DNA of 50,805 nucleotides from Hysterium pulicare CBS 123377 (lineage: Eukaryota > Ascomycota > Dothideomycetes > Hysteriales > Hysteriaceae), in NCBI GenBank assembly GCA_000467715.1, contig AJFK01000181.1:1-50805 (forward strand), given 5' to 3'. The position numbers and the translations under genes were made by a program. Every line of letters begins with the position of its first letter. Position 1 is the stretch's first letter. Positions 25,944-48,756 of this stretch are shown here, in pieces. Under the pieces are notes generated by a model, which did not search any database, was not told where the DNA came from, and saw nothing but the letters and a program-made list of their open reading frames with translations.

Positions 25944-27558
25944 CTAGCAAACCATCATTTCGTCTGAGTCTTGCGGTTCACATCGACTTTTTGTAAAGTT
26001 CCAGACATCCACCGAGCAATCTGCAAGAGTTTTCTCTGCCCTCCACTCGAGCTCGGTTTCCGCTCTCCGGCTATCAGCCACGCAGAATCCGACGTCTCCC
26101 GCTCTCCGGCCAACTTCTCTCACTGGAATATCGCGACAAGAAGTCTGTTGAAGGCTGTGAAGGACTTCGCGTACAGTATGACCTCTTCCTGTGCCTACGA
26201 TACATTAGTAACGATGTCATAGTAGAACAGGATACCAACGGAGTAAATGCCCTTTGGGAATTCATTACGTCCGTTCATAGGAGTATTGGACTTACCAAGA
26301 TTGTATGTGCGGAAAGCGTCTTTGATCTTACCAGCGGCCGACGCTGCCAAAGCAGCGATATGACCTCTTGCTAGATCGACAACATGGATGAAATCCCGAA
26401 CCGCAGTGCCATCTGGGGTATCCCAATCCGTTCCGAAGATGTCCAAAACGGGTTTAGCGCCAGTGAGGACTGTGGCAATAACTGGGATCAGGTTGCTTGG
26501 CTTTTGCCTTGGATCTTCTCCAAGTATTCCTGATTCATGGCATCCGACCTTCACCAACGACATCAGTACACCTGCCAAATTTCAAGGAAGTAATTACTCA
26601 CCGGATTGAAGTATCGAAGGGCTGTGATTGACCACGTAGGATCCGACCTTGCAATGTCGGATAGAATAGATTCACACATGAACTTCGTTCGGCCATATGG
26701 TGAAGTCAAGCCGAGTACACCTGGGCTTACCCGGCGCTCAAGTCCATCGGTATCGAAGTATGACTCTGGATGATGAACACATAGTTCTTCACGGAGTGGT
26801 AGTCCGCAATTCGCGCCTTCGCCGTAGACGGTGGCGGAGGACGAGAAGACGAAATTTTTGATTCCAAATTCCTCGAGGAGACTGAGGAAGTCCACCATGC
26901 CGCAAACGTTATTGCTATAGTACTTCAACGGCATTCGAATACTCTCCTCCACCGACTTATACGCGGCGAAATGGATTACACCTGATATTCTCGATGCCCG
27001 TCTCAGGATCGTTTCTTGTGGTTCGTCTTCGTTGTCCATGTCAATACCGGAGTCGGTCCGTTGAAGTTGGGAGTACGGGAAGCCTCGGGGAAGGGCGCTA
27101 GCAGACGCAGTGATTGCCGTTCCAGCTTTGTTGCCAATGGAGTAGGATGCGTAGCTTGCCAATATCGATCGCATGTGTGGGCTTCGGTAGTCGAGCTGGC
27201 GGAAATGAAGGGCAGGCATGGAACGATCAAGAGCAGCAAAATGCTCAGTCGCCAGGGCCTTGATTCGATGAAGAACGCTCTCATAAGAGTTACTCAAGTC
27301 GTCGATTATGAGAACATTGTAGTTCTCCTTCAACAACTCAAGAACGGTATGCGAGCCAATGTAACCAAGTCCGCCAATAACCATAATGAAGGGAGAGTTA
27401 TTGCCGACGATATCGAGAGGATCTTCGACAACATCGTCGTCAAACAAAACGGACCTTTGAGTGCCCGGAGTGCTAATTGCCTGTGGAGAAGCAGAAGGAG
27501 AGAGTGAATAAGAGGACAGCGCTGGGGATTCTTCCCCAAAGGTTGAAAAAGTATCCAT
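25944..27558 (-). CDS. uge3: UDP-glucose 4-epimerase of the galactosaminogalactan cluster
   Basis: Three exons, 26602-27558, 26296-26548 and 25944-26194, with introns of 53 and 101 bp, give 486 residues. This short-chain dehydrogenase-fold enzyme interconverts UDP-Glc/UDP-Gal and, in the Uge3 type, UDP-GlcNAc/UDP-GalNAc. NAD-binding GGLGYIG is at 62-68, followed by IDDLSNSYES. The active site has SSSATVYG (239-247) and Tyr288-x3-Lys292 (YGRTK). RYFNPVGCHESGILGEDP and VRDFIHVVDLARGH follow. A 57-residue polar N-terminal extension and a low-complexity insert near 140-187 enlarge it beyond the yeast epimerase domain, as in other mould epimerases. Substrate range cannot be read from sequence; the Uge3 name rests on its place beside sph3. 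It shares a 484 bp promoter with sph3. Confidence 0.88.
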
Positions 27559-28042
27559 GAGTGCTTAAACGAATGAATGACCGTGAAGGTTGGTGCTTGT
27601 TGGTGCTTGTCCTGGCGGCATGGAGAGGTATGTGGAAAATGTCTTATATATTCCTGAAGCCATTGCGCAACTTGAACCCCAATTAGGCAGAACATGATCG
27701 ATGCAAGTTTTCCCCGTACCGCCCAATTTCGACCGTGCCTGGGCTGCCCTTGGCATGCTCCGGCCACTTCGCCCCGACTTATTTTCTGCCCCGAGGGTTG
27801 GAGCTCTGGTCTAGTACTTCAAATTTACTGCGTAACCGGTTAATCCCTGCTCAATTTGTTTTCCATCACATTCCACTTTTTAAACACTTTAAATCCAATT
27901 GCGCGGCCTCCAGAGCCCCCGAGGGCTTTATTAAGGCTGCAAGCTGACCATTGTCTCCAGTTGCACCATCACGTTTCCTAACTGAGAACCCGGATTCTGC
28001 GTATTTTTCGGTACCACTTAAAATTTCTTTTGAGGCACTTTC
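27559..28042. promoter_or_regulatory. Shared divergent promoter, uge3 / sph3
   Basis: This is 484 bp between divergent starts, so co-regulation is likely. A perfect 10 bp tandem duplication (TGGTGCTTGT twice) lies at 27591-27610, 33-52 bp before the uge3 ATG. No StuA-type (A/T)CGCG(T/A)N(A/C) site was found here. Confidence 0.55.
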
Positions 28043-29209
28043 ATGGGATTATTCTGGCCAATTATTCTTTACAAATCTCGAACCGTTTACTCCACACTAG
28101 TCCCAAAGCTTTTGTACTTGATTCAAGTGATCATTGCAAGTTCAGTGGGAGTTCAATCAAGTTCTCGACCAACGCGTTGCCGACGGCGAAACACGATGCC
28201 TTTCGCCGCCTCAGTCCTTCTCCCTCTCTACATTTACCCTTCCCCCGGGGCCTGGAATCCTCTGCTCCAGATGTATGAGGCCCTCTCAGATCTCCATGGA
28301 TTCACTTGTGGCGCACTAACCTCAGATTATGACAGGGCTTCCACCTACCCCCGTGTAGGATTTACGGCAATCGTCAATCCAAACAGTGGCCCGGGTGACG
28401 GCACGCTACCCAATGCAAACTATACGCAGGCCATCCAACAACTGAACGCCATGAGCAATGTCCGTACTATCGGTTATGTGGCTACCACGTGGTGCGCAAA
28501 AAGTATCGATTCAGTGCTCAACGAAATTGCTGTTTACAACGGATGGGGCACCCAGAACCCGTCCGTCGCCATGCATGGTATTTTTTTCGATGAGACTCCC
28601 GTCCAGTACGATCCTGGATGTGTTCAATATTTGCAAACCGTCTCACAGGCCGTTCGAAACTCGAGCGGCTTAGCGGATGGGTTCGTTGGTAAGTAAAACT
28701 CATCTCATATGCGTTGGGCATGCTGGGTGGTTCTAGCAAGCCCGAAGCCGGTGAGTGCCGATATATGGTACCCCTCACTATATGACTGGTCGTCTTCTTC
28801 TGAGGGCTGGAGTCTCGCGCCCATAGCCTGGGCACTTGATATCGGCAGTTGCAAGCGTCAAGGCTGACAATGCACCACAGTCCACAATCCGGGGTCTATG
28901 CCTGACGCACGTTACTTCAGTGACCCAACCTCCAGTAGAGCAGCCAACGTCACCGTGGTGTTCGAAGATACCTACACCAACTGGGTTGCACGTGCATCCA
29001 ACATCACCTTATCGTCACTTTCATACGACCATAAGAGACTTGGAACCTTCATTCATTCAGTACCAGAAGAAAATGATACTGACCTCGAGGCGCTCCTGCA
29101 AGAAGTGGTCGCTGTTGGAGAGAGTGTTTACCTCACCGGAACTGACAATTACACACAGTTCGACCAACACTTTCCCATGTTTGTTCATTGCTTAGATCAA
29201 CTTGTATAA
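28043..29209 (+). CDS. sph3: Spherulin-4 family glycoside hydrolase (GH135)
   Basis: Three exons, 28043-28272, 28336-28688 and 28881-29209, with introns of 63 and 192 bp, give 303 residues. The family cleaves galactosaminogalactan internally, and Sph3 is needed for GAG production in A. fumigatus. The TIM-barrel domain starts LLPLYIYPSPGAWNPL (about 59-74). VNPNSGPG and GYVATTW follow, then catalytic-site FFDETP with Asp162-Glu163, and VVFEDTY with Glu223. From memory the A. clavatus enzyme uses D166, E167 and E222, so spacing agrees. The start at 28043 adds a hydrophobic segment (about 19-37) fitting the N-terminal membrane anchor of known Sph3; starting at 28196 would give a soluble 252-residue protein. 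Basic residues after the segment make the topology uncertain. Confidence 0.87.
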
Positions 29210-32200
29210 TAGACTGCTTTTTGGTTTTTTTACGCTTCAGTGTATCTAGGAAAGGGTGTTCCGGTTCTGCGGATGTCGTGCATGAGGGATGAAATGCAGA
29301 AAAATTGACTCACCGGCATGTCTGTTCTTGATGTGATCCTGGAAAGAGCCACGATTTCTGAGTAACGAAGTACGTAGCGTGACGAGCACACGTTGGATCG
29401 GGGTTCATGGGCGGCGGCTTCATAAGATCGAACCAGGTCTCACGCCCTTGACTATCATTGCCTGCTTCTCTGGGTGGCCGTCGTGCTGGGATACTGCAAC
29501 GGAATGATGGTACACGGTGGTGACGAACCTTGCACTGTGTCTGCTAGCAATCTGAGCTTCTCGACCGCCCCATGGGGTTGCTTGTGAGGCACGACGGAGT
29601 CACGCTATTGTGGCAGTACGTGATGATAGTACAGGTCGGAGCGATGAGAGCCAGGCGCAACGTAGAAGCATCGAATGAGCGGACCGTCATCTCCGCCGGA
29701 AGAATCGCTCCAACAAGGCGCAACATGAGCGAATAAGCAACGAAAACAAGCAATGATCGTCCATCCCTGCCTTTCCCCCGCGAAAATCCATCAGGCACAA
29801 CGAGCGTTGGGGTTGGGTGCACGCCGCTTTTAACGCCTGTCGCGCCCCCTGTTCTAACCCTTCCCGACGGCGCTAAATTCGCGTGACCACTTTATTTCAA
29901 CCCCGAACTCTTTGCATTCACTGTACCTCACACTCCTCACCCGCGGCCGTCCTTTCACCTTTGTCAATGCACCCTGTTCTCCAGTCTCTGTGCGCCTTTA
30001 CCTTGTGTGCATCCCCAGGTTACTGCAGGCGAATGCATGTCTCCCTATGACGCGGCGCCCAAGGTTGACGCGGCTCTGCATCTAGAAGCACACAGGGTAT
30101 CCCAATGCTCACCACCAGTTCCCAGTCTTCCCTCTGCTGTCCACACAAGTCCAGATGCAGCAACCGGTTTCGACATATTGGGGCAAGATTCGCAATGGGA
30201 TTTCCAAGCCGAGCGACGGACAGCAAGGACCTACAGTGAAGGATGGGTCCCCCGCGATATTCTCCCTGGTCTATCCACGCTATCGGGAAATCAAACTGCA
30301 AGGTTCTTTCTTCCACCGTAGAACGCTGTAGAGCAGAGTGCTGACTGTCTGCCTCTGTGCTGCAGAGGCCTCTGCTCTGCTCTTGTCGTTCATGTTCGGA
30401 CTTCGAAACTAGTAAATCCCGCCCACATGTATAGCGACAGCTATTTCACATTATACAATTCCGGATAATTCTCGTCTGTCCTTGCATGATTACGCAACAA
30501 GACAAAGAACGCTCCAGCATGGTTACAGGACTTCAGCAGCACACCACCGTTGCAATCAGTATCAAGTGAAGCATTCATCGCCATACCACTCCACTACAAC
30601 ATCTGCTTGCTCCAAATACGAAGTTTCATAGCAGCATCACCTCTCACAGTCGCTCATAATCTTCTGAGCGAATTCATCTTCGCAACGCTGCGTTGCGCTC
30701 TTGTTTGCTCATTTCAATTTTCCACCAGTCATTTCCCATTTTTCGGCCATGCTCGCAGATTTGGATGTATGCAAACGCCATACCAATATGTGAATAGGCA
30801 AGATGACGAAACAGTCTGCTTACCTACAGGCGATGGCTCATAACATAGGCATAATTTGCATCCCAAATCCATACTCGCTAGTGGTACACTGCTAGCCGCC
30901 TTTCCTGCAAATGGTTGAGATCCAGAAACACAAGTTTGTGCAACCGCTAAAAGGGTGAATGCTATGTTGCTCGATATTCAAGCGCGAAGTACTCTAGGAA
31001 TATGTCCCTTGTCGCTCAAAGGATCCTTCCTATTTACAATAAGAATTGGATACTTGCACCTTTTAGACGAACGTGGCACCATAGTGACGTTGGACTGCGC
31101 GAGAATTGCGCCAACATCGATGTCAAATTTCCCGAATATTCTATCATCTATTTGGGCGGGAAAAGTATTGGTTACGCAAGCCTTGAAGATTCCGTTTTCT
31201 CTGCGCCAGTCGGTTCGCTTCCGCATCTGATAGTTCACAAGCCGACTATTTGCCTGGTCGCGTAGTACAGCGAACTTGGTTGCACATCCTCGACTGTGCC
31301 CGTAGGCTCGGTTCGATGAACCAATTTGCTTCTAAGGCGGCCCAGGCTCTTCCGCAGCAATTCCAAGCAGGACTACCAGGTCCGCCGCCTTCGCCCTCCA
31401 GGAATCCTCTACCCGCGGAGAATAGGGTAAATCTAACGCTCTGGCAGGTGAGTGTGGGCTTGTCAACGCCAGAAATACATGCTAGGACTACTCCGGTCGT
31501 TGGACCAATCTACCAAATTCCGTTTGCCGACTTGACGAGCGAATACCTCGGTTCCTCTGCCTAAACCACACGCTGTGTTACCGGGGGTTCTGGGGTGCGT
31601 TGGGATGTTCGACCCGAAGAAAGAAAGTAAATGTTTTCAGCAAGGGGCCTATTAGTTGGAAGTTGGGCCGCTTAAGCCTTCCGGATCGAATTCGGCAAAG
31701 GAATGATCGACAGCTACTGCGGGTAGCTTCAATTGTGCGATTTTTCTCAACGTTGATCGCCTCAACGATTAAGAAAGGACGCGTAGCCCCTGTTGCTCGT
31801 CTACGAAGCGAATGACGGCCTGCGAGGACTGGGTCTGAAGAAACATATCCTCCACTCCTCACGAAATTGCAGCCGCCGAAAATGCTTGACCCTGATCCTC
31901 ATAATCTGCAGGCGGATCTCACTTGTTCTCCAAGATCTATCAATTCATCCGCATTCATCCGCTTGCGAAACTTGGCTAGAGCCCTGGCCATGCTACTCAA
32001 TCGGGCGGCTAATCTGTTGCGTATAGCTATAACAATAGATAGAAACTTAGCGTGATCAGAGGTCCAGATTTTCGACTGCTTTTCAAACCGCCACCAACGT
32101 CAGCAATACTTCGCAGCTGCGAAATATTTAGACTCTGGCCTCGGTAGAAGCATAGCTTCCCCGGATTCGCTCGTCCGGCTGTACTGAAGCTGGTCAATAA

Positions 32201-32827
32201 TACGCGCAGAACTAACGGTGAACATTCTTTTGTGCGACCAACTCCAGGCCCTGCCCTACGGCCCTGCGGGCGCGCGGAAGTTGGGCTTCGGTACTACGGC
32301 GTTGAGTCACCACCGATTCACGATCCTTAGCAGAGATCAATGCAGTCACGACGATCATTTTAGAGTTGCTGATCATGATCTTGATCTAAATCCTCCTAGG
32401 AGGCGAAAATCGGGCACCCGCGATCTCCCCGCGAAGAATAAGCAATTCCGAGTACTTCTCATCTACGAACCGGTAGGCCTTGTTTGTGAGCCTCAGGAAC
32501 AATGTGGACTTTCGCTCTCTATCCGCTCGTTTGATTGAGCTTACGAAGCAGGAGCAAGATATGCACCCCACAAACGCACCACGCACCCCGCAGTGTGAAA
32601 TAGAGGATTCTCGACAGGGAAGGTTCTTTTCCACCGGTTCCAGACATTTCTGCTGCAGGCGGGCTCAGGAACGCACCCACACCATTGACCGTTTCTCTTA
32701 CGTCATGCCAAACACGTGAATGTCGAATTCTTTCCTCAACCCCACGGGATGCAGTAAGCAACTCTTCGGACAAGTACAATTCCTCGGACTTTAGAACTTT
32801 TCTTCGACCGAACATTTCCATTGCATT
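29210..32827. other. Gene-poor 3.6 kb interval inside the GAG cluster
   Basis: This lies between the 3' ends of sph3 (+) and ega3 (-), so no promoter is required here, yet it is the longest gene-free stretch in the window. Base composition is ordinary, not AT-rich. The best coding-like piece is about 31316-31449 on the plus strand: it starts MNQFASKAAQALPQQFQAG, runs into a Pro-rich stretch, and reaches a donor-like CAG/gtgagt. I could not find a continuation or name a family. A perfect palindrome CCTCCTAGGAGG lies at 32392-32403. No transposon ends are seen. Confidence 0.4.
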
Positions 32828-34021
32828 CTATGACCCAGTCGAATTTATCGGCGTCGTTGCCGTGTTTCCATCGCAGTACTCCACCCATCCGTCTAAATCC
32901 ATGTTCTTGAGCACCGTCTGGAACCCCGTTTCTCCCGCAGCATCCCCTTGATTATCACAATACCGCTGGACCACGCTCGCTTTCAAGTTGGGCGCTCCGT
33001 CGGGGTACTCGATGTGGAAAACGGGTTTCGAGGCATTGATGTAAGCACTGAAGCTCTCGCATTCTGAGTTTTCGACGCATTGCTCGTTGACTTGGAAGTA
33101 GGTAATAGGTAATACGGCGGGGATGATGTCTAAGGAGTTTTTGAGGCCCATGGATAAGTTGTAGGCTAGAGTGGCATTGGAGAGGAATGCCATGTAGTTG
33201 ATGCTATCGTAAGGGGTGAGGTTGAGACCGTTTTTGTTTTGCTGGATTTCAATGTCAGTTTTCTACTCTCTTTACCTCCGACTGACTACCCCTTTCACAC
33301 TTGGGAAGTAGGTCAAGGCTGTAGACCATATATCACAACGCCAACCGCAACAACCGAGAGAAGAAATGCACAGGAAAGAGATGTTACTCACATAACCATC
33401 TACATTATCCGGATCCACAGCATCGCAGCCCTTCTCGCTCGCCAACTTAATCCTCTCCGTCATAATATTCCTCACGTTCGTACTATTCAGATCCAACCAC
33501 TTCTCCCCCGGCCACCCCTCCAAACCCAACCCCATATCCTGATCCGTAAAATTCCCACTATCCGGCCTTCCAGGCTCAAAACTCCCCGCACTAAAATAGC
33601 AAATCACTTTCTTGCCCAGCCGATGCAGCGTATCAATCGTACTCGTTGGATTTGTGAAGAGATCTATGTCGTAGACGCTGACATTCGGTGTTACTGATGT
33701 AGCGTCCGTGTCTAATATGATATTCGATTGGAGGATGATTTGCCAAGTGTCGTTTACGCTTGGTGCCCATGCTGGCGTTGTAGAGGGCGATGGGAGAGGC
33801 GTGAAGGTGTAGGTGGGTGTGGGTTCTGAACTTCCGCCTCCGTTGTCGCCGCCGCCGCCGTTTTGGCCTATGGTTAGGCCTACGCCGAGACCGACGGCTA
33901 GACCAATTATTAAGAACAAGAGGATGACGCCGAGGATTATCTTTAGGCGGAGGGATGTGCGTGTCCAGATGTTTTGTTTTCGGGGTGGAGTCGTCGACTC
34001 CTTTTGCGTTGGAGAAGACAT
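32828..34021 (-). CDS. ega3: Endo-alpha-1,4-galactosaminidase (GH114), membrane-anchored
   Basis: Two exons, 33392-34021 and 32828-33241, with a 150 bp intron in phase 0, give 347 residues. Residues 1-27 are polar and basic, 28-51 are a hydrophobic anchor (LKIILGVILLFLIIGLAVGLG), then a Gly/Pro/Ser/Thr linker leads to a GH114 barrel from about 85. Motifs are WQIILQSNI, VICYFSAGSFEPGRPD, the WLDLNSTNVR segment, and KGCDAVDPDNVDGY (the conserved acidic catalytic pair). The C-terminal part has VFHIEYPD. Ega3 hydrolyses galactosamine stretches of the GAG polymer and is a type II membrane protein, matching the architecture here. A frame upstream to 34072 exists, but MSSPTQKES at 34021 gives the expected start. 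Transcribed in the same direction as agd3, whose stop lies 1.26 kb upstream of this start. Confidence 0.92.
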
Positions 34022-35285
34022 TTTTTGACGCGACAGATCTTCACAAAAACTCGAAAAGAAAAAAAAATCCAAGAAAAATTACTAAGCAAGAATTTTGCAG
34101 TGGTACAAGTTCGGCCAAAACACGAAGAATATCTTCTGAGCTTATTCGCGAGCGTCTTGGCTGCCCTTCTTAAAGAGAGGAGTAAAGAGGCTGTGTTGTT
34201 CTGCTTCAGCTGGCAAAAACGCGCTCTCACGATACGACTGTTACAGTAGCAAGAAAGGAGATTAAACCGAGCACCGTCGCTTTGGTTCAATACTTCGTTT
34301 GCATATTATATTGTGGCGCGGTGCGAACGTGTGTCAATGAGCCTTCAGGGACCGAATCCTTGGGACTTGGGGTTCGTACAAGCTCAAAGAAATTCAATAG
34401 GATAACGAGAAACGCATGAATCGTTTTCGCGATGAAATAATGGATGATATTTTGATAATTGATAATTGACGGTTTTCAAAACTGCGGATATGAAGGGGGC
34501 TTCGACGATCTGTCCTGAGAAAAGGGGAAAAGGCCACACGGAACAATAGCGAAGCGTTCCCTACCGATATTAATACGCCCTTGTCGAAGCCCCTGCCAAG
34601 TGATGTGGCAGTGCCAACGAACCCCTCCCTTGCTTTAATTCCCTTTCGGTTTGAATCCTTTTCAACGAAGGATCGAGCTGAGATGGCATGATCGCGGTGG
34701 ATTATGCTTCGCAGATACGAATCGAACTGTAGTTCGTAGGAGGCTTAGTATGGAGGCGCTGGCATTGCAGGAGGAATAGGCGACGTTGCGTTCGGTGGAA
34801 GTCTGGGGTAGTGAAAGGATTTTCGGGCGATCTTACCGGAAGGGTGTTAGCGCTTGTGTCTGGCAAAATGCTTAGCACTACTACTGTGATCCCATTCAGC
34901 GATCACATGGCAGAGCGAACGTGAAACTCGGTCGGAAGTAGAAATTCATCGTCGTTTTCGTCTATCTCGAGATTGAATCTGAGACGTTGCAATACATTTA
35001 TGTGCTTCATGCGGTCACCACTAGATCAGGACGGAGCAGAATGCTATGAATAATAGTATTTCGTAAGGATGGTATTTGCTGCCGCACAGCTTTGCTTTCC
35101 AGCCCCCTCCCCTCTCCACGATGGAAACCCTTCTAAGTAATATGTAACATAGCGAAGTGAATAATGCTGGTATTAACAATTTTCTCGCGCAACGCCTTTT
35201 CGTTTACACAATACCACCTCGGCTTTCTCTCGCCCTCTAATAATGAATGATGCCTGGTATTCACAATTTGTATGTACATATACAT
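34022..35285. promoter_or_regulatory. ega3 promoter and agd3 downstream region
   Basis: This is 1264 bp with no gene. Three matches to the StuA consensus (A/T)CGCG(T/A)N(A/C) lie within about 410 bp upstream of the ega3 start: 34028-34035, 34146-34153 and (minus strand) 34425-34432. About one would be expected by chance in the whole interval at equal base frequencies. A direct repeat TTGATAA/TTGATAA lies near 34453-34465. Confidence 0.4.
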
Positions 35286-37647
35286 TTAGACAGAAATAGC
35301 TTTAGAGAGTGTGTAGCTGCGGGCTGTTCCGCTCATCGTCACCCAAAGTGTCAGTGGGTCAGAACCGATTTGCTCCTTTGTGGCACCGGTGGTGGACGTG
35401 GTAGTGCCTGGGTAAGTAACGGGGACGGTCGTTCCGCACTGGTTGTTGCTTCCAGTGCCGACAGTTGTGCTTTCGATGCTCTTGCCGTCTTTAGACAGAG
35501 TCCAGGTCAAAGTTGGCTTGCAAAGATCCCGGGTCTTTCTGTTGATGAAAGCCTGCGCGAGGTCGTCATGCTTGATGGTCTTGTAGGGCCAGGTAGTGCT
35601 GTTGCGTTATTAGCAATTGTACGGGAAAGGGGCACGCTGAACGTACAGTCTCATCATCTCCACAATTACAGTCTCGACCCATGTCATAAGGAGGGAATAC
35701 TGGCCCTTCTTGCTGTTGACCGTTGTCTCTGGAACATCGGCCACCCTGAGATTCGCTTGATGGAACATATATCTAGCATAGATTAGTAGAAGTAGAATCC
35801 GTAAAGACTCAGAGAGTACCTACGGGTCCCAATGAAGACCGAGAAAGTTCCTTGTTGCGGTGTTTCTCGCGTCCTTAAGGAGGTCGTCGAATGTCCCTTT
35901 ACCACCAGAGGTGTCGATCCATTCTTGCAAAGTACATGCAGGCAAGTCACAGTTGTAGTAAATCGTCGATGCCCAGCGCGGCATGATATTCACACCAGCA
36001 TAGCCATTGTGTTCGACAGTGCTAGTCAAGGGCCAGAAACGATTCTCCGTGTTGAGAAGTAGGGGTCGTGTATTATCACCGACCACGTTAACGATACCAT
36101 TATCGAGCCAAGCCTTGAGAGCATCTCCGTTATGCAGTCCAGTGATTGCTGGAGGAATTATACCCTTGGAACTGAAGCGCTGAGCGTTCGATATTCCGAC
36201 TTGGGCTAGCCAGGCTTGGTTGAAAGAGATCTCCTTAGCGGTATCCGAATACGTAGCATTCGTCAAATCCTCGTGTGAGCTTGTCCTTGTTAGCAATGCC
36301 ATAAGCAAAAGATTTTGGGAGCTTACAATGTATGGGAGATATGAGCGAAATTATTGAGATTATCCTCGACTTCAAACCAATTGAGGAGATCGTCAATCTC
36401 AGCACAGTCAAGGCTCCAAGTATACTTTGTTGGAGTAGCAGGCCAAATATTTGTACCACTTCCCATAGGCTTCGTGTAGTCTGGAGGACCATCAATCTGA
36501 TCGGGATACTCAATACCCATGTTGGGACTGCATGTGCGAGCGCCCTGCGTAGTATCGGTCGAAGCCTCAATGTCACCATTTCCGTTGTGTCCAATTTCCA
36601 AGAAGTATTCGGATCCTTTAGGCATACGAGCATTGATATCAGCTTGCCAGTCGACGTGCGCGTTAAGATCTTCGGCCACGACTCGGTAGGAGGATCCATT
36701 CGGTCTGTACATAGGTGTTTCCAAGAACATGTCATCAACTTGGGTATTCAAATAAAGTCTTCGGAAGCCAACGTATAGACCGCGAGTCATCCAATGGATC
36801 CAAGCATGTTGAAGGAAGCCTGAAGATGCCGACCAGTCGAGAGCAAACGGCATGAACCAAACCATCTGTTGGCGCAATCCAATCTGGTTGATGACAGCAG
36901 CCGTTGCATTTCCATTGAACTTAGCAACCTCCCAAGCGATGGAAGAGTTGGTAATTTGTGCGGGGTAATGGTAAATGTTGGCGATGCTCACAGCGGCGTT
37001 ACTGTGCATTCTGTTAGTTTCTAGTGCATATGGAAATACGAGCTCGAGAATAGGCGAGATCAAATGATCGGTAAAGTTTGAAAAGTAGTAGATACTTACG
37101 TCTTAATATTCGCCGTCGGGAATCCGGTAGAGTTGACGATGGAGACGGGCTCGTCTTTCGCATTTCCTGGAAGGCCTTTGGTACCAAAGTCGGCGTTTGG
37201 GAAGACATCTAACCGGACCATGCGAACACCAAAACTGACTTGATAATTGTAGAGCGTGTTCCATTGTGCCCTTGTCATAGCACTGTAGTAGGATCCGTTG
37301 TAATCGTAGGCGACTTCGCTCACGATAACTATTCCACCATAGTTGCCACTGGTTGCTGTCGAGTTCAGTACTGGTAATTTTGCGCCTTGCTGTGAAACAG
37401 TGAGAACCTCGAACGGGATACCATAGCCTTGTAAGCCAAGGTAACCACTGTTGGCGGCTGAGGTATTGTCACGCGCGATAATCAGAACGGTACTGGAAAC
37501 TGTAGCTCCACCTACGGCTTGGGTTGGAAGCGGGGGTAAGTTTGCAGCGTTTTCGACGCTCTCAATTGACAGGACAGCGCCGGAAAATGCCAATAGAGCA
37601 GTGATGGCACACGCCCGAATCGACGCAAAAAAAGACAAAGGTGCCAT
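35286..37647 (-). CDS. agd3: Galactosaminogalactan deacetylase (CE18)
   Basis: Five exons: 37100-37647, 36327-37001, 35824-36279, 35647-35772 and 35286-35598, with introns of 98, 47, 51 and 48 bp, give 705 residues. A cleavable signal peptide (ACAITALLAFSGAVLS, about residues 12-27) directs secretion. The N-terminal part (about 50-230) fits the carbohydrate-binding region of the family. The deacetylase module holds TQVDDMFLET with Asp272-Asp273 and HISHTFSHEDL with His406-x3-His410, the metal-binding set of polysaccharide deacetylases, then GLHWDPYMFHQANLR. The family removes acetyl groups from GalNAc in GAG, producing the positive charge needed for adhesion and biofilm. The C-terminal 70 residues form a Thr/Ser-rich beta-type tail. 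The gene is divergent from gtb3. Two small 3' exons were placed by splice sites and frame. Confidence 0.92.
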
Positions 37648-39273
37648 CGCGAGAAGATGGAGATCAATTGAATGAGTGAATGCAACAAAGTTCACGGGGA
37701 GGCTGCACGTATTAATAAAAAAAGTGCTCGGCTCTAGAAACACGTCGACTATTGGGCGAAGTATTGAGCCAGAGGCGAAATATACTAAGGGCGTTGTTTA
37801 TTACCCTTACTATTCCCACCTGGCTACCTGGAAAGTAGAATGCAGGTCGATTTTGAGGAACGGCTTCACGCCATGACGCGGCGCAATGGTTCTATAATCT
37901 CAAATACTGTGCGCTGTAGCATCATTGAGGTCCATGGACAGTTCCATTGATACAGTTCCATTGATGACGCAGCGTATCCTTCTCGTAGAATTTGGGTGCT
38001 GTGGACGCGAAGCTGGGCGATAAACGGGCTTGGCAGGCATCTACTGAGCAGAAGACACGTAAAAAGCATTAAAGCCACGTGCAGAAGAAGGAGAATTGAC
38101 TAAGAGGGGACGTGAATGGATGGTTCCGGCTTGGACAGCTGCACGACGCCGGTGATTGCAGCGTTGCTGATCCAGGTCCAGTCCGACGCACCTGGGGAAA
38201 AGCTCTCAATTCCAGCGGTTCTTCGATGACCTGGTGAGGGCTGGCCCCAGCACGGCGTTCCATCGCGGCTATGGAAGCCAGCTAGATGTGTTCTAGCTTG
38301 GAGACGTTATGATGGAGAGGATATTGGGGAGACGCGTCCTACGGCGAGACATGTTCTTCTGGGCCCTTCCACGCAAGCTGCACTCCGCATGTACTTTGTT
38401 GTGATGAAGGTTCATATAAAGATGCTGTATTTGAGGAGCAGGGGAGTATAGGAGGAGGTCAGGCTAAAGTCAAAAGCGGAGCGGAATGAGTATTTTCCCC
38501 GTTAAAACAGCGATGAGCACATCGTGTGGTCCGAGCGCCGATTCAGCCTCCCGCAGCTAACGTCGAATGCATCAATCACCCTTCTCCAGACTCCGACCCC
38601 CGACCCCAACTCATCTGCATCGCCGTTATTATGGCGTCGACCCTGGACCTCCCCGCTCCCTGCAGTTCCGGATTGAGCTGCTCTCAGCCTGCACGCCTGC
38701 AAAAGATGTGCAACTTTTGCTCTGCCTACTGACGCCCGGTCGAATGGCGGCAGTGTCATCGCCGTTGACCAGGAGCACTCACTAATGGCCATTGCTCGGT
38801 TGCCCGTGCTGGAGGCCATGCTTGCTGCCATGGCTCTAAAGCCCACTACGCGGCCTCATGTGAACGATTTGCCTCCGGCTGCTGTGCGATTCGATCATGC
38901 CAATTGGGTTCATTCCACTGACACATGGCAATCTTATACCTGCCCTGAGTAGTGTCGGGGCATGACCTAGACAGAATATGTGCCGGTAGCCTCTTCCCAT
39001 AGTGTCTGGTCAAGCCCTTATAGTATCAATTTTTTCCTAGTGTTTTTGTTTGATGTGTCCGTCAGTGCAGTTGGCGATTCCAGTCCTTTTACTATGAAAC
39101 ACTGTGGCCTTGTTATGTCTCTCGCTACCCCATCTCTCATTTAGTTATTATTTCGTCCTGATATCACATCGATCCCCCACATTCCTCGGCCCAAGCCTTG
39201 AGGCGCCCGCGGTGGACGATTTGGTCATTCTTCAAAAACCCCACCAGATCCAAACTTCAAACCCGGTGTCACT
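37648..39273. promoter_or_regulatory. Shared divergent promoter, agd3 / gtb3
   Basis: This is 1626 bp between two divergent starts. A StuA-type consensus (ACGCGTCC) lies at 38332-38339, and another (TCGCGAGA, 37647-37654) overlaps the agd3 start codon; about 1.6 are expected by chance. No convincing gene is present, although short frames exist at 38502-38846. Confidence 0.45.
38332..38339 (+). promoter_or_regulatory. Candidate StuA response element
   Basis: ACGCGTCC fits the published consensus (A/T)CGCG(T/A)N(A/C). It lies in the agd3/gtb3 shared promoter. StuA controls GAG genes in A. fumigatus; binding here is inference. Confidence 0.25.
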
Positions 39274-42200
39274 ATGGTCCAAGTCCTGGGCATCACCGCG
39301 TTTGGGTCCGAGGCCCTCTTGAGGCACTGGTGGGAGTGGACTCTAGTTGCTATCATCGGTGCCAGCGGACTTGTTGGCATCGTGGCATTCATATGGGGCT
39401 TCTATCTTTCAATTCGGAAGCTACTGAAGGTATGACTTCGAGAAATCTAACTTATCTAGATTGGTCACTGACTATTTATCAAAGTCGGATTCAGACGAGA
39501 CTTCATTACCGCGATCCGTCCAAGAACGAATACACCTTTTGTCTCAAAGTGCTACGTATGTCAGTAGTGGTCAAAGTCTTCCCTCGAAACCTTCTGGCTT
39601 TGGCGTGTATCTCGGCCCATTATCGAATCCCTCGGTAGAAGACGAGATAAGACTTATATCACAATGGGAAGCTGTTATTCTTGATCCATTTCAACCAGGG
39701 ATACCGGAAGCAGTCAACGATGAATATCTCCCTCTGGGGCCGCACATAATTGCCCGCCTAGATCTCCAAAGTCTCCTAGATCTCGTTCCGGCTCTAGATA
39801 ATGAAGTGGACATGCTTCGGGCCGTCTACATCCTCTCAAAAACTATTCAGCAGACCCTAAGGCAACCTCAATGCCGGAGATACTTCACTGGTGTTCTTGT
39901 AGCCGGGTGGAAGGAACAGCTTTCCATCCCTATGTTGAATGGTATTGCAAGACTATTTGCGGCCCATGGATTGGACGTCTTCCTTGAAATAGGACCACCG
40001 GGTTTCTTGGACGAGGTCAAGAAGCTGAATCTGAAGCTTTTTGCAGGCGTTGTTGTCAAGAATGGTACAATTCTTCCCAATGGAGAGCGGCGAGACTTTT
40101 TTGGCATGGAAAAGATGAAAACTACGACAAAAGCTTTTGTCTCTCAAGCCTGTCTTCGTCCTTTCACAGTAATGATGTGGGAGACGGTGGATGATGGTGC
40201 TGATCTTTCACATGCCGTGGTACGGAGATCTCATATGTGGTGTAGCTATCACGGTGCCATCCCGTGGATTGGACGAGCTGCATCAATCACAGATATCTCA
40301 GCAGTCCAGCCTTATGATGAACCATTGGCCGCGTTTCAATGGCTTAAAGAACGCCGAGTCATGAATGTCCATGATATCTTCCGCACAACTCGTATTGTAA
40401 GTCTTTGTCAACGCGGATTGAAATTGACAGGCTAATCTCCTCGCCTAGTTAAATTCCAATTTTTCCAGCAAAGTGGAAGATTATCTGTCATTGCAACAAG
40501 TATTTCCATATCTTAGTCATGCCATCGCTGGTCTGGATAATGATGACTATGAATCGGACTCTGACGATGAATCAACCGCACACTCCACCGCATCGACACT
40601 CACGGTTCAGTATCCAGAAATTGATGAGAACGGAGCACTTCTTCCCCACTCGCCTTCTATGCCTACACTGGATTGGACTTCGAGCATGGACAAACGAAAT
40701 GCCAATCCTCTGTCGTGCTCTTTTTCTGGCTCTCTTTATGGTTCCCTCGGATGCTTTCCAATTGGTCTAAATGCTAATCAAGACGATTTCCAACGGGTTT
40801 TGAAATCCCAACGGAAGCTAAGAAGACTGAATTTGCTCAGCAGAGTGCCTGCTAAGCAACTACAAGACATCGCAGCACTTCTCTACCGATATGTGAGATC
40901 AGACAATCGTTATGTTGACGTTGTCCCCACAGCAAGGCAGGCAATAGGCGATATCGCCAATTTACTTGCTAGGGCCAACGATGAAGCGGATGACACCTAC
41001 CAAGTCCAGGTTTATCTGGGACTGGACTCTGGCTTCCACACTCCAACGGGAACCCAGTTCTGGGCCGTCTTCGAGACTGACCCACGAACGAGTACCCTCA
41101 TATTCTATATTTCGAAATCAGTCCAAGATCTCTCAGCAGTTATACTTCACACGTATTTAAGTCGATGTTCCTTTTCAAGATACCAATGTTTCTTGACTGA
41201 GTATGGCCTCCAGCTTTTTCAAAGCAACGTAGCTGTCATCGATCGCCTTCCCGGGCGTCTAGAACAAGACCTCACGCTCTTATCTTCTTCGGACCTCCTT
41301 CTTTACTTGCAACATATGAGGTTTTCAGAGTGGGACGAGGGTTGCCCTTTGCTCTCGTTGGTCCGTTCGACATGCGAGGAGCTCTTGATCGACGTTCCCA
41401 CGTACAGACAGTTGAAGCAGCGGAGCAACATGGATTATATTAGTGGCACAATCTCCGACGAAACCCTCGTGAATGCACGATTCAAGTGGTATCGCCAATG
41501 CCACCTACCTAGCATTGATAGACACCAGGCTCTCCGACTTTTCCGCGAGATTGAAGATAACATGCGCAACCTACTTTGGAACCGAGACCACCAACAGTTG
41601 GATATTATTACATCCGCGATAGAGAAGCTGGCAAATAACAAGGAAAAGCTAGACCCGGTCGCCGACTTTGTACTGTTTTCCATTTTCTGTGCAGCGAGAA
41701 AAGCAGGGTTCGAAGAAGTGTACATTGAAGTCTCCGACCGGAATCCTCTTTTCAACCAATACACCGATCAAAGCGCAGCCTTTGCCGAACTTTTCGCCCT
41801 CGGTTCTCGATGTGAGGCCTACTTTGATGTTACACCCAGTGATTTTGGACTTCTTCTTTCTAAAAAGCACCGGGAGTACTATAACGAACCAGAGCATCAG
41901 CCCCCAATGTGGATCTGGAATGCACCTTCATTTGCTTCAGCGTACGCAGCGGCTCAAACGGATATCGATCCCGATCAAAAAGCATCGGTAATGCCCTCAT
42001 ATCGTCGGTTTACATTTCTGAGTGTTTTCGCCATTCCTGCTCTTGTTGGTAAGTCTGCTTGGGTCACTCGTTGTCTGAACTGCAATTGATTATTTCTTTC
42101 TAGATATCATGCTTTTAACAACTACCGGGCATGGCCTCTATCTCAGCGCATTCATGTCCTATAATGAGCAGAAGTATGCTACACTGGCCTTGATGACGTC

Positions 42201-45200
42201 TCTGCTACTGTCAGGTGCCATTGGAACTTGGATCTCGATAGGCGGCACGTATTATCTCATCTCTATGGCATTCTCAGCTGCCAATATGTTTGTTTTTACG
42301 CGCTTAATCGGAGGCCTTGCATTTACTGCTGCTGGTGGTCTGCTAGGATTCATCATTATCAGCGCAGTTCACAATGTCCAAGCAGGTGCCATTTTCTTTT
42401 TTTACCTGTTCGGCTTGACATCGTATCTGTCTGTGCTAGCAGTACTCTCTACGTATCAAATTCCCGGATCTTCTTTCCTAAATGGCCGTAAAGTCATCAT
42501 CATGCTTATTCCGACCCTCATTATTTCTCCGATCCTTACCCTTTGGATTAAGGGACACGATGTCATTATCTACCTCTCCGTGCTTCATTTCTTCGTCGTC
42601 TTGCTTCTTTTGGGAGCTCGCAATGTTGGTGCCCAATGGGTGACCTGGTATCACAGTGTCAAGACGCTTGACGATGCCGCGGTGAAGGACTGGTATGCGC
42701 GAACAAACACCAAAGCATCGAAGTTGCAAGACCCGGCACAAATCAACGGTCAGTATCTATTGGCTTGAGAGCATAGGTGCAAAGTGCTGACTTCCATTCA
42801 GGGAACAAAATGAGTGTGGATGTGAGAACATCCCTGGCCCCGTCCTCTCAATTGTCAACAGAGGAATCTGATATATTTTACGGCCTGAGCGAGCCTGCTG
42901 TATTGGCACTATGTCGGAAAGGACTGTACGACGAAGTGATGAAAGAGAAGAATCGACATTTTTGGCAAAAAGCAACCGATGACTCTCTTGTCAAGGAATT
43001 GGCATCCTGCTGGGACTCAACAATTTTCCTTTTGGATTGGTACTGCCGTTTGAGTGACGTCAAACGTCCAATCCCATATAGCTCCACATGGAACCTGGAA
43101 ACTCAAGTCGCGCTAGAAAGCATGCAGCAGGCGCAAAAAGGAATACGTCTCCACAACTCATTCATTCACTGGCGTAACGCCGGCGATGAGATCGGCTCTG
43201 GTATTCTCTACTTTCTCACTGCCCTGATGGACCGATGGTTAGCCCTTGTTCAAGGTGGTCATGTTGTCGGCTTGTCTGCTGCGTTTAACAAGTCATATCG
43301 CCTATCAGTGGGATTCGGGCTGGCCTACTACTTGATCGGTGCCGTTTTGCTTGATTACAAAGCTCAGCATCTACATCAACTTTCTGAGCAAGCCTCACCT
43401 GTTTCTGTCGAGTCTATTCCACACATTCGGAAAGCTAAAGCCAACGACAAAAAGTTTCGGCGTCATCTTTACTGGAATACTCTTTGTCACTTCATCGGAG
43501 TTCACGTCTGGGCACTTTCACTCAGTTCAGCTCTGGTTTGGATTTTCAATGGATCAGGAGAAGCCATGACCATGTTCTTGTCCTATGTGGGGGCTTACAG
43601 CGGTCTTCTGATCTACCAATACAACAAGATCTTCTCAGGACCTCATGCACTGATGCCACTTCTGACGGCCGTCCTCCTCGGGTTCCCCCTTGGCATGATT
43701 CTGAAACGGGTACATCCAACGTTCGAGTACAATAACGTGATAGCGCTCGGTGTTAGCACATGGTCTGCTGCTTTGATGTCTTTTAAAACAGCAAAACTTG
43801 GTTTACCTGAAGCGTTCGAGATCCGGACTTGGTTCTCGGAAGTCTGCGACAGCTTTAAGCGCTCCAGAAAGCCCAACGCCTCCAGCGAATCTCTCAACAT
43901 TCCTGGGTTTGAAATGGCAATGCATTGGTCCAGCATTGAAAAATTCCATGCATATAATGGTGCGGGGCCTGACCAAGAATGGAGCCAGAGTGAGCTTGAA
44001 GCTTTTTATGATAAACTACGAGCTGGACCCAAGGAGAATCGATTTAGACTGTCTGCATTCAGTCATCCGGGCACTCAAGTCACTGCTCTTCTACTTTCGT
44101 GCACCCACGAGGCGCTAACTAGGCTCGCACTGCATGCATTCCCAACTATGCCTTTCTTGGTGCAAAGAATCGTATCAGCTTGGCAGAATGGCTCGATTAA
44201 ACTCTACATCGTACCTATGCGATCAGTTGTGGATGGTGGCGCCGACCTTCGGGCTATTTCACACTACTCCAACGGTTGTCTGACTATCCTTCTAGCGTCT
44301 GATGCCGAGGGAGCCGCTTCTTCGCAAATGAACGTTAGCAGTAACTGTCGAGTTATTGCGGAGACTCTAATTCACGCATGTTCCGAGACTATGTTCGGCA
44401 TTAAACACTTCCAAGCGGACATAGCTGAGTCCCTTCTGGTGTGCAAACAATATACAGATGAAATGTACATCGTCTCAGAATGTAGCAAACGCACTATGCC
44501 ATTTGGTGGTTCCGATGCTCAAGCTACCGCATTCGCTACTTCCTGTCGGAAATCGCTATTGCGGAGTCTCTGTTTGGGAGTTGATTTCGAGACGCAATGG
44601 GACACCCTTCCTCTTGAGATTCGAAACCTATTCCTCAGGAGATGCCTTGGAATCTACAATCCATTCACGTCTAGTGAAATGGCATGGGTCAATGAGAACA
44701 TCCCAGGAGAAGATGCTTGCACTATTTCGGCACGGATAGCTCGCTATGATCTCGGCGCATTCTTGGCAGTTCAGAAATATAACTATTTCCATATGCGAGC
44801 ACACCAAGCCACAGGCGAAAAAGGATATCGCCAAGTCACCGCTGATATTCGGCGCTCCCACCATCCAGTTCTCAATCGCTCGGCGACGTCGCTTTTTAGC
44901 GCCCTCTATGCTCGTATCAAGATGCCATTCGCCTATACTTATCACCTTTTTGGCACTTGGATAAAATTCTTCGTCCTGGCGGCAATGGCAGATCCCGAAT
45001 ATCAAAGAGAGCTCAACTGTGCGTTGAAAGGTTCGCCAAGGATTCTAGCCAAACCATCGACCTTCTTGCTCACAGGACTATGGATTTATGCCCGAGCCGC
45101 AATGGCTACGACACTACCATTCTTTATCTACTACGGTCGCAAAGACGTTGGAGCATTAGCGAACACAATAAAAGGTAGCATTATTGCCCAAAAGAAGAAT

Positions 45201-48200
45201 CGGCTTGTGATAAGAAACCACGACCAACCAGAGACTGCATTCATTCATCCGACCGACGAGCACGGATTCAAGTTGATCTTCTACTCTGGGATCCTGAAAG
45301 AAGAGCCAAAGTGGGGTCATACCAGGATCAGTACATTTGGGAAGGACATGCGCCTGTGCTCAAGAGTTGAGTACAAGAATGCAGAGGTTACCAATGAATT
45401 TATCTATGATTATCCGACTAAGAGACCTGAACGGCCGGGCAAGATCACCAAGGCTCAGAACACCAAAATCCCCATGGCCAGATCTTGCATTCGTGGAAAT
45501 TCCGAAGGCGCCAAGGTTCAATACAACCACAAAGGTCACGTCGAGTCTGGTAGCTTCATGTTGCATGGGAATCTTGTGCGCTTCAAATATCATTACAGAA
45601 AAAATGCCAAGTATGATGACGAACTTCTCAGAGCAGAATTCGTTTTACCTCACATGTCCTGCAATGTCAGTTGGTGTGCTCCACCCATTCGGCACGCCGA
45701 GAAGATGGAGCGTTGGATACCTACCATGCGGGTGCACGAAGCTACTTTTGTCCAAGGCGCAGACGTCTACGAATCGACGTGGCTTTATGACCACAAATTT
45801 CATCCAACCATAACCACGAAGTTGAACGGCGAGGAAGTAGATACCCCAGACATGATCCGTTTTGATTGGCTCGGAGTTTTGAAGAAACCTACGCACTGTA
45901 CCTTTACTGATGAGAACCCCCTCATTGAATTCAAATCAGCAACTTCCAGTTTCCTGGGCCGTTTCTTCAGAACCAATATCAAGCGTCAACCCGTATCCAC
46001 ATCTCGAGCAAGATCCCAACTTTGGAAAGCCTGGAAAAAACGTACTGACCTCGACGGAGTGGTGATCAGATGGGTAGATGAGCAACTCCTAAGGCGTGAG
46101 TCGCTATTGAGCACATATTGGCGCCGCAGAGACCGGGGAAGCCTGCTCAAAGCAGAAGATTATCTTGCATTACACGCCGATGCCATCATGGCAAGTTCAG
46201 ATCTTTCTAGCGATATAAGTGCATGGACTCCCTTGGCAGTTCGTATCAGCGACCTCTTTAGCTTCGGACAGGGTGGTGACGCTGTCTTCCACACGAGAAC
46301 CAAGACGTTGGCTCGCGACACAGACAAGTCACTACATGTTATCGCAGTAGATACAGGAACCTGGCCCAACGAAGGTGGTGGTGTTTCAGCTTGTCGACGT
46401 GATCTAATCAACAACCTGCGCACCATTAGATGGCACATGGTGGTTGAATCTGCGAACGATTTTGGGTTGCCAAAGCACCAGACTGAGGAAAATGTCGAAT
46501 CTCTAAAGATCATACCTCTATGGGGCCTCGACTTCCTCCACCCAAATCACGGGATGTTCACCAACAAGCTTGACAGCGAAGTCGACCACCTATTTAGGGA
46601 CGCAACCCTTTCAGATATTCGTACGAACTTCCTTCCGACACTCACTGCTCTTGTCCGAGGTGCACGAGCGCTTACCATGACACAAGCCGATGTCAAGCAA
46701 GCTACTCGAGCTTTAGTGAATCTCAACACCTACTTCCAGGATTCACGGCATTGGAAAGAAGTGTGGACAAGCGACATTGTCAAGGACACTTGGAGAAAGC
46801 TTTGGCTAACAGATGATATGCCCAACGCACAAGCACCTTCGGAATGGTTTAGGACCGAACTACCAACTCTTGGACACCTCGATACTGCCTTGGAGCTATG
46901 GTTCAGATGTAAGTAAATAGTATATAATGGTGTTGAAGCTACTAACCAACGCCCCAGATCTATTCATCTTCTCAATTCCTATCCCGGAGAAGATACCCAG
47001 TGTTTTCCAAGCTTCCCACCACAGCGTTTCTGCATCCTACGGAATTGTCTGCAAATTGAAGCGGAATTGCACTCTTCAAATTTGGGACCACGCTATCTCA
47101 TGGAGAGAGACTAATCTTTATCTCTCATCAGCTATGTGCACACTTCCTCCATTCATCCGAAACGCACTTCTAGGGCTGATGAAGTTAACCTCGACACTCA
47201 TTCTTCATCATGCGGATCAGATTCTTCCATGTGCTGGTAAGACATCTTCCATGAGTCCGGCCGTTGTCCCTTATTCTAAGTTACTAATTCGTTAAAATAG
47301 ACTTCTTCAATCCCGGCTGGGAGGTGGAAATTGGAAGTTCGAAAGGAGAGCTCACTCATCGCAACGTCTTCAAGCGAAAGGTGGATCCAATCGGTAAGTT
47401 CTGCCCCTTTCTTTGATGCGCAAAAGGAACCTTCGACTCATTTGAACATAGTCAATGGTATTACCGACATGCAAAAGTTTGCCCCCGTATCGGAAATCAA
47501 GACCAAGACGCCGACTGTGACCATGCTTTCGCATGTGTGGTTTGCAAAGGATATCAAGACTGCCCTTCTTGCAGCCGACATCATTTCTAACGAGTGGGGC
47601 TTCAAAGACTACAAGCTGGACATCTACGGGGCTTTGAACAAGGCTCCTGTCTACTCCTCGGAATGTCAGGAGATCCTTGCCTGCAAAGGCCTGGGTACTA
47701 GTGTTACTCTTAGGGGAACTGCAGATCCTGCAATGGTTCTCGCTAATACAGTATGTCAAATTTTTCCATTGATTGTAAATGTAAAAGCTAATAAACGACT
47801 AGTGGCTCTTCCTTAACTCCTCCGTATCAGAGGGTCTTCCACTCGCACTAGGTGAAGCTGCTTTGACTGGCGCTCCTGTCGTCTGTACCGACGTCGGAGC
47901 GTCCCTTCGAGTGCTAACTGATCCCGACGATGGCAAACGTTATAGTGAAGTCGTTGCTCCCAACGATGCTTACGGCCTCGCACGAGCGCAAATCAACCTC
48001 CTTGCGATGTTGGATGAGTGGGCTCAATATGCTGAGGATGAGCCGGGTTGTGCCGCTCCTATCTTGCCACATAAGCCAACTCCTAAAGATGTTGAAATCA
48101 TCACAAGACGCATGTACGAGAAGAGCGAACATAGAAGAAAGCTAGGTATGATGGCCCGCTCCATTGTCCAAAAGTCCTTCGGCGGCGAACGATATCTCCG

Positions 48201-48756
48201 AGAGCACGAACAAATGTTGTGGATCGGAAAGTCATGCTACGAAATGCTCGGCATCAACAGCCAAGAGCCTCCAGCCAGAAACCCCAGCCGTCGTCGTCAA
48301 TCCGCTATCGCGCCGAAGCTCCAATCAGCCGGCTCAAGCCAAGTCCTCGATGTCCAGCTCGAGAAGATGCAACATCCACGTCCGCCATTGGCTAAAAACT
48401 CAACAACTACATCGTTTTCTAGCGTGTACTTGGATGACCCGGCGGGTCCGTCGAACTTTAATTACGACTGGGACCTTCCTCCTACTGCGGACAGCTCTAT
48501 CACACACGAAGGAAAAGATGACGGCGAGCTTTATTACCCGATTGATCGACCAATGCGTGCTCGTGTTCGATCTTCAGACAGAGCCGTGGGCAAGAGTCCC
48601 ATGAGGGGAGCTCGTTTGCCGAATATTGATGCGAGACGGAATCCCATGACGCGACCGTTGAGACCGGAGAGTTTCAGAACTCAGAGTACGAGGGCGAGGA
48701 GTACATTGCATGAGATGCAGGTTGCGGAGTATGGGAATGTTGATGGTCGGCTGTGA
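39274..48756 (+). CDS. gtb3: Giant multi-pass GT4 glycosyltransferase, GAG synthase
   Basis: Nine exons: 39274-39429, 39485-40396, 40449-42048, 42104-42748, 42802-46908, 46958-47236, 47301-47393, 47452-47750 and 47803-48756. All eight introns are 44-64 bp and all phases agree, giving about 3014 residues. A membrane anchor is at about 24-48. Residues 60-350 alternate beta-strands and helices in a barrel-like order, unassigned. Residues about 890-1080 hold five or six membrane spans, with more near 1275-1415. The catalytic GT4 domain is C-terminal: DTGTWPNEGGGVSACRRDL (about 2285, nucleotide-sugar loop) and SEGLPLALGEA (about 2706, E-x7-E). A polar, Arg-rich tail of about 180 residues follows. 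Gtb3 of A. fumigatus is the proposed GAG polymerase/exporter; the GT4 signature recalls bacterial PelF. The largest gene here, intact throughout. Confidence 0.9.

Follow-up and report, generated by a model that had tools for sequence, protein, structure and literature searches.

A probable galactosaminogalactan gene cluster of Hysterium pulicare and a PelF-related domain in its glycosyltransferase Gtb3

Introduction

Co-regulation (StuA, MedA) is a trait of the fungal galactosaminogalactan (GAG) gene cluster. In Aspergillus fumigatus, five co-regulated GAG genes have been described; a study of 2016 found the cluster in 28 species among more than 250 genomes and raised the possibility that it came from bacteria (PMC4817252). 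The tags AFUA_3G07910, 07900, 07890 and 07860 are assigned to uge3, sph3, ega3 and gtb3, respectively (PMC4817252), agd3 adjoins ega3 (PMC7229062), and a 2020 review lists the order gtb3, agd3, ega3, sph3, uge3 together with a working model of GAG synthesis (PMC7329490). The same review describes Gtb3 as not yet characterised and notes that Aspergillus species differ in how much GalNAc their GAG contains (PMC7329490); deletion of gtb3 is reported to abolish GAG. In Metarhizium, gene deletion shows that the cluster makes GAG (PMC8224951). The bacterial polymer Pel consists mainly of GalN/GalNAc, and cross-kingdom activity of GH114- and spherulin-4-type enzymes has been noted (PMC9135694). Furthermore, bacterial operons carrying most or all GAG-like genes were reported in 2020; GH114 is a very consistent member of them, spherulin-4 occurs in some Actinobacteria, and the finding was read as strengthening the case for a transfer from bacteria (PMC7229062).

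This study is focused on a window of 50,805 bases (the whole stretch of DNA analysed) in Hysterium pulicare, which is contig C146 of a 37.2-Mb genome in 596 contigs. It is very probable that positions 25944-48756 hold a GAG biosynthetic cluster orthologous to that of Aspergillus. Clusters of this kind are already described in many Pezizomycotina, and the window is a further example. It adds one more fungus that can be expected to produce GAG, which in Aspergillus and Metarhizium is linked with adhesion, biofilm and contact with the host.

Organization of the Locus

The five genes are adjacent in the order uge3, sph3, ega3, agd3 and gtb3 (Table 1), the outer ends of the cluster being the stop codons of uge3 and gtb3. 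A preliminary description had placed five GAG genes side by side here, which is borne out by spliced models and Pfam families for all five, and had given the same order for A. fumigatus, which agrees with the tags of four genes (PMC4817252), the position of agd3 beside ega3 (PMC7229062) and the listed order (PMC7329490); this comparison concerns gene order.

Approximately 3.6 kb without a recognised gene separate sph3 from ega3. A 3.4-kb part of this gap (29300-32700) is single copy, matching only itself in a DNA search of its own genome, and the idea that it is a repeat was accordingly rejected, simple repeats being skipped by the search; five ORFs of the gap gave no Pfam match at 0.01. On the uge3 side, about 2 kb from the end of uge3, lies a gene for a transcription factor of the Zn2Cys6 type (Zn_clus 2.4e-8, Fungal_trans 2.3e-9); it is treated here as a neighbour of the cluster and not as its regulator. 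A CTNNBL1-like gene (2.8e-191) flanks gtb3.

Table 1. Cluster genes and neighbouring features of the window (positions in bases)
Feature	Position	Strand	Description	Exons
Zn2Cys6 gene	21774-23946	-	Transcription factor	
uge3	25944-27558	-	UDP-sugar 4-epimerase, 486 aa	3: 27558-26602, 26548-26296, 26194-25944
sph3	28043-29209	+	Spherulin-4 / GH135 hydrolase, 303 aa	3: 28043-28272, 28336-28688, 28881-29209
sph3-ega3 gap	29210-32827	.	Without recognised gene	
ega3	32828-34021	-	GH114 endo-alpha-1,4-galactosaminidase, 347 aa	2: 34021-33392, 33241-32828
agd3	35286-37647	-	CE18 deacetylase + CBM87 + C-terminal domain, 705 aa	5: 37647-37100, 37001-36327, 36279-35824, 35772-35647, 35598-35286
gtb3	39274-48756	+	Giant membrane glycosyltransferase, 3,014 aa	9: 39274-39429, 39485-40396, 40449-42048, 42104-42748, 42802-46908, 46958-47236, 47301-47393, 47452-47750, 47803-48756
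CTNNBL1-like gene	49079-50803	-	CTNNBL1-like	

Introns, which measure 47-192 bases in the genes of the window, where fungal transcription-factor families are also present, were positioned by hand from splice signals and from alignment to solved relatives where available. The resulting five spliced frames total 4,855 codons and have no internal stops, and each enzyme retains its catalytic residues, the residue roles of Sph3, Ega3 and the epimerase being presumed. The earlier claim of intact frames stands to this extent; the status depends on the inferred introns, of which three of 17 use the less usual AAG acceptor (uge3 intron 1, agd3 intron 2 and gtb3 intron 1), and on an uncertain start codon of sph3, taken as the first ATG of its frame. 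The protein sequence flanking the first two of these introns is conserved and fixes their positions, and for gtb3 intron 1 a possible alternative acceptor further downstream would also preserve the frame.

Structure and Predicted Function of the Four Enzymes Beside Gtb3

The Pfam families named below for the four enzymes all score above their cut-offs, as does GT4 in Gtb3. Uge3 belongs to the Pfam family Epimerase (3.7e-38) and matches UDP-glucose 4-epimerase structures at up to 5.7e-61 (first-round query). It carries the motif YGRTK (288), which we take to be catalytic, and a Cys in GDVGFC, a position at which a small residue presumably goes with acceptance of N-acetylated sugars, as in the human and E. 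coli epimerases; the position is Leu in the one other epimerase of the genome, on contig C94. In the Uge3 model, 56 residues of the product of the first exon (26602-27558) precede the NAD-binding strand, and an insertion of approximately 60 residues lies around 109-174 relative to the best-matching solved epimerase. Uge3 and Gtb3 are assigned by family and position only.

Sph3 has a hydrophobic stretch at its N terminus and matches Pfam Spherulin4 (9.3e-75) and the spherulin-4 structure 5d6t (4e-57), with the motifs FFDE (160) and VVFE (220). Ega3 has an N-terminal hydrophobic anchor (segment 28-46) and matches Pfam GH114 (3.5e-80) and the solved endo alpha-1,4 polygalactosaminidase 6oj1/6ojb (2e-81), with DPDNVD (203) and HIEYP (286). 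We take the acidic and neighbouring residues of these four motifs to have the roles known for the two families. The structures 6oj1 and 5c5g are those of Ega3 and Sph3 of the A. fumigatus system (PMC7229062).

Agd3 comprises all three expected domains, namely Agd3_CE (CE18; 3.5e-180), CBM87_Agd3 (1.5e-84) and Agd3_C (3.4e-20), and matches the solved Agd3 6nwz at 1.4e-229 across query residues 48-704. VDD (271-273) and HTFSH (406-410) are present, and in the 6nwz alignment the base, metal, Arg and acid positions described for this enzyme (PMC7229062) are kept as D272, D273, H406, H410, R509 and H564, which include the DD pair, H-x3-H and the catalytic His. Four of the motifs named in the preliminary description, Y-x3-K, DE/E, DPDNVD and DD plus H-x3-H, were thus recovered. 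For the fifth, E-x7-E of Gtb3, agreement is partial: the pattern by itself is weak evidence, occurring 10 times in the protein, and EGLPLALGE (2707-2715) counts as evidence because it lies inside the GT4 domain.

Paralogues in the Genome

Genes of these families, cluster copies included, occur at no fewer than seven places for GH114, three for spherulin-4, two for agd3-like genes and one for full gtb3; with such counts in 37.2 Mb, five genes within 23 kb are not a chance assembly. In scores against the solved structures, each window copy comes out ahead of the single paralogue taken for comparison: Agd3 by 767 to 748 bits (+19), Ega3 by 277 to 263 (+14) and Sph3 by 197 to 177 (+20). The window proteins served to find the paralogues by tblastn, and the segments so obtained were joined into queries, which may cost the paralogues some bits; the C23 spherulin-4 gene, as well as five more GH114 places, stayed outside the scoring. 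Because the margins are small and the paralogue queries joined, orthology is supported by these scores and not proven.

The second agd3-like gene is solitary (C138:62869-65165, minus strand; approximately 54 and 46 per cent identity to window Agd3 in two pieces), and tblastn found no other GAG gene in the surrounding 30 kb. Likewise, no other GAG gene was found by tblastn in the 10 kb around each of the spherulin-4 genes at C548:118694-119612 and C23:22398-23255, and no other cluster gene in 10 kb each around the GH114 genes on C411 and C440. A second GAG cluster was thus not found around these five genes, which include two of the six other GH114 places detected. A second full gtb3 was not found in a genome search, in which the exon searched as 39428-40432 and the last exon matched themselves only. 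The longest gtb3 exon matched itself and a short stretch at C285:10234-10484 (minus strand), which agrees with Gtb3 residues 1991-2074 at about half of its positions; no further part of gtb3 was found on this 19.6-kb contig, and from its sequence the stretch resembles what would be left of a second gtb3.

The PelF-Like Domain of Gtb3

Gtb3 has one N-terminal hydrophobic segment and, depending on the threshold, 8 to 10 more at approximately residues 877-1405, and its C-terminal region holds a GT4 domain (Pfam PF13692, 3.9e-14), with DUF3492 at 7.6e-5, just below the Pfam cut-off. For residues 2281-2849 the best NCBIfam family is PelF (NF038011, 1.2e-19; next family 1.1e-10), although the match reaches 70.8 bits against a curated cut-off of 100, its best stretch covering profile positions 280-463 of 489. 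Judged by these profiles, this region is related to PelF and falls below the cut-off for filing as PelF. In a tblastn search of 72,556 plasmids the region matched eight records (best 6e-12), and a PelF or DUF3492 annotation lies under the match in seven of them, the eighth being unannotated. The nearest solved structure is the more distant glycosyltransferase Gtf1 (0.0026). A narrow literature search found no statement naming both proteins as homologues.

Residues 1-2280 gave no Pfam family in the parts scanned, apart from a weak Ribophorin_II_C signal (0.0097, under cut-off) in the first 77 codons; an idea by eye that residues 53-360 form a hydrolase-like barrel was dropped, as no Pfam match accompanied it. 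No bacterial counterpart of residues 1-2280 was detected: when the whole of Gtb3 was compared by tblastn with 86 bacterial loci, every match ended at residue 2250 or later, and hhalign of the region outside GT4, run with a single Gtb3 sequence and hence with little power, gave E values of 0.25 or worse against PelG (two sequences) and against membrane proteins of bacterial Agd3 operons (three, then 19 sequences). These negatives are weak because no other fungal Gtb3 entered the comparison. Single-sequence structure prediction returned mean pLDDT values of only 37.7 for the part encoded at 39491-40396 and 32.8 for that at 45066-46328.

It is conceivable, and we offer it as a tentative proposal somewhat short of probable, that fungal Gtb3 descends from bacterial PelF, which in fungi became joined to a membrane exporter and to sizeable uncharacterised soluble parts, that the GAG cluster is a captured bacterial operon of the Pel/GAG type condensed to five genes, and that residues 1-2280 hold a new kind of synthase partner. 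The PelF-like domain offers a model of the Gtb3 active site that can be put to the test, and it is relevant to the bacterial origin proposed for the cluster; the relation to PelF may matter more than the cluster itself and may be useful to specialists.

Bacterial Loci with Agd3 and PelF Relatives

Bacterial operons with GAG-like genes, having been described previously (PMC7229062), are not a new find. Plasmids of Deinococcus QL22, D. ficus and Kocuria rosea carry loci in which PelF has a membrane protein, GH114-type enzymes and an Agd3-like protein as neighbours; both Deinococcus loci also encode an epimerase-type protein, and the Kocuria locus encodes spherulin-4. The Agd3-like protein of Deinococcus QL22 is backed by Pfam (CBM87 9.6e-17, CE 5.8e-16) and that of Kocuria weakly (2.2e-5 and 0.0043, both below cut-off); Kocuria PelF matches DUF3492 over nearly its full length.

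A scan of GTDB genomes with an Agd3-like alignment yielded 165 confirmed relatives, and the best 80 were taken forward. Among these best 80 of 165, PelF lies within approximately 9 kb of the Agd3-like gene at 66, PelF together with GH114 and spherulin-4 at 42, and a Uge3 match at three; at 12, none of the genes sought was found within this distance. These numbers are lower bounds because several loci are cut by contig ends, and they are not 80 independent cases since 59 loci are titled Streptomyces. The combination of PelF, GH114, spherulin-4 and a Uge3 match occurs once, in Solirubrobacter sp. CPCC 204708 (locus L103, 8974-19813), where relatives of all five GAG proteins, Gtb3 being represented by its GT4 part only, lie within 11 kb. 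Window Agd3 finds 23 of the 80 loci by tblastn, and the bacterial link is thus distant.

Proposed Pathway and Alternative Interpretations

The following steps, including export and the polymer itself, are drawn from published work on relatives. Uge3 would make UDP-galactose and UDP-GalNAc in the cytosol, and Gtb3, as a membrane protein with a PelF-related GT4 domain, would link these UDP-sugars into an alpha-1,4 chain and pass it out of the cell. Secreted Agd3 would then take off part of the acetyl groups, leaving the chain positively charged and sticky, and Sph3 and membrane-anchored Ega3 would cut acetylated and deacetylated stretches. The preliminary description expected a partly deacetylated polymer with adhesive properties, which is reasonable to infer and has the support of gene-deletion work in Metarhizium (PMC8224951).

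The relation of the GT4 domain to PelF also suits a different product, in which the cluster would make another alpha-1,4 polymer, for example nearly pure GalNAc/GalN like Pel, and not galactose-containing GAG. The composition of Pel (PMC9135694) and the variable GalNAc share of GAG among Aspergillus species (PMC7329490) are in keeping with such a product, whereas GH114 and spherulin-4 occur in both kinds of system and so cannot discriminate between them; we regard it as unlikely. It is also conceivable that Ega3 and Sph3 act against the GAG or Pel made by other microbes and that their position in the cluster is incidental, given the cross-kingdom activity of such enzymes (PMC9135694) and the presence of GH114 at six or more further places and of spherulin-4 at two or more, which indicates that these families are not tied to the cluster. 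Yet sph3 and ega3 sit inside the known five-gene order and both proteins outscore the paralogue scored, and an attacking role is accordingly considered extremely improbable.

Real and orthologous genes could nevertheless yield little or no polymer if one of them were silent or mis-spliced, as the three AAG-acceptor introns and the possible alternative acceptor in gtb3 intron 1 might suggest. Against this, the open codons of the five frames and the kept catalytic residues argue for ongoing selection, and such a failure is judged very unlikely. A GAG cluster orthologous to that of Aspergillus is thus retained as the preferred interpretation.

Comparison with Known Systems

As far as the published order can be traced, the window has all five genes of the A. 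fumigatus cluster (AFUA_3G07860-07910) in the same order, and matches to the solved proteins reach 1e-229 for Agd3 and 2e-81 for Ega3. A gap of approximately 3.6 kb lies between sph3 and ega3 in the window. Unlike A. fumigatus Agd3, which has a Ser-rich stretch near its N terminus (PMC4817252), window Agd3 has no evident stretch of this kind. The same five genes are found in Metarhizium and other Pezizomycotina (PMC8224951, PMC4817252), and the window shows them in an ascomycete-type genome that is not among the best-studied species, although gene order and orientation in Metarhizium differ from those of A. fumigatus (PMC8224951), whose order the window has. In bacterial Agd3 operons, Agd3-like, PelF-like and GH114 proteins, often with spherulin-4, are likewise encoded side by side; there, PelF and the membrane protein are separate genes, whereas the GT4 domain of Gtb3 is preceded by 2,280 residues with no detected bacterial counterpart, and, unlike in the window, a Uge3 match is rare (three of the best 80 of 165). 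Relative to the bacterial Pel system, Gtb3 differs in its sub-threshold PelF score, and no similarity to PelG was seen in the low-power comparison with a single Gtb3 sequence; Gtb3 shares with PelF a GT4 domain with a DUF3492-like front part.
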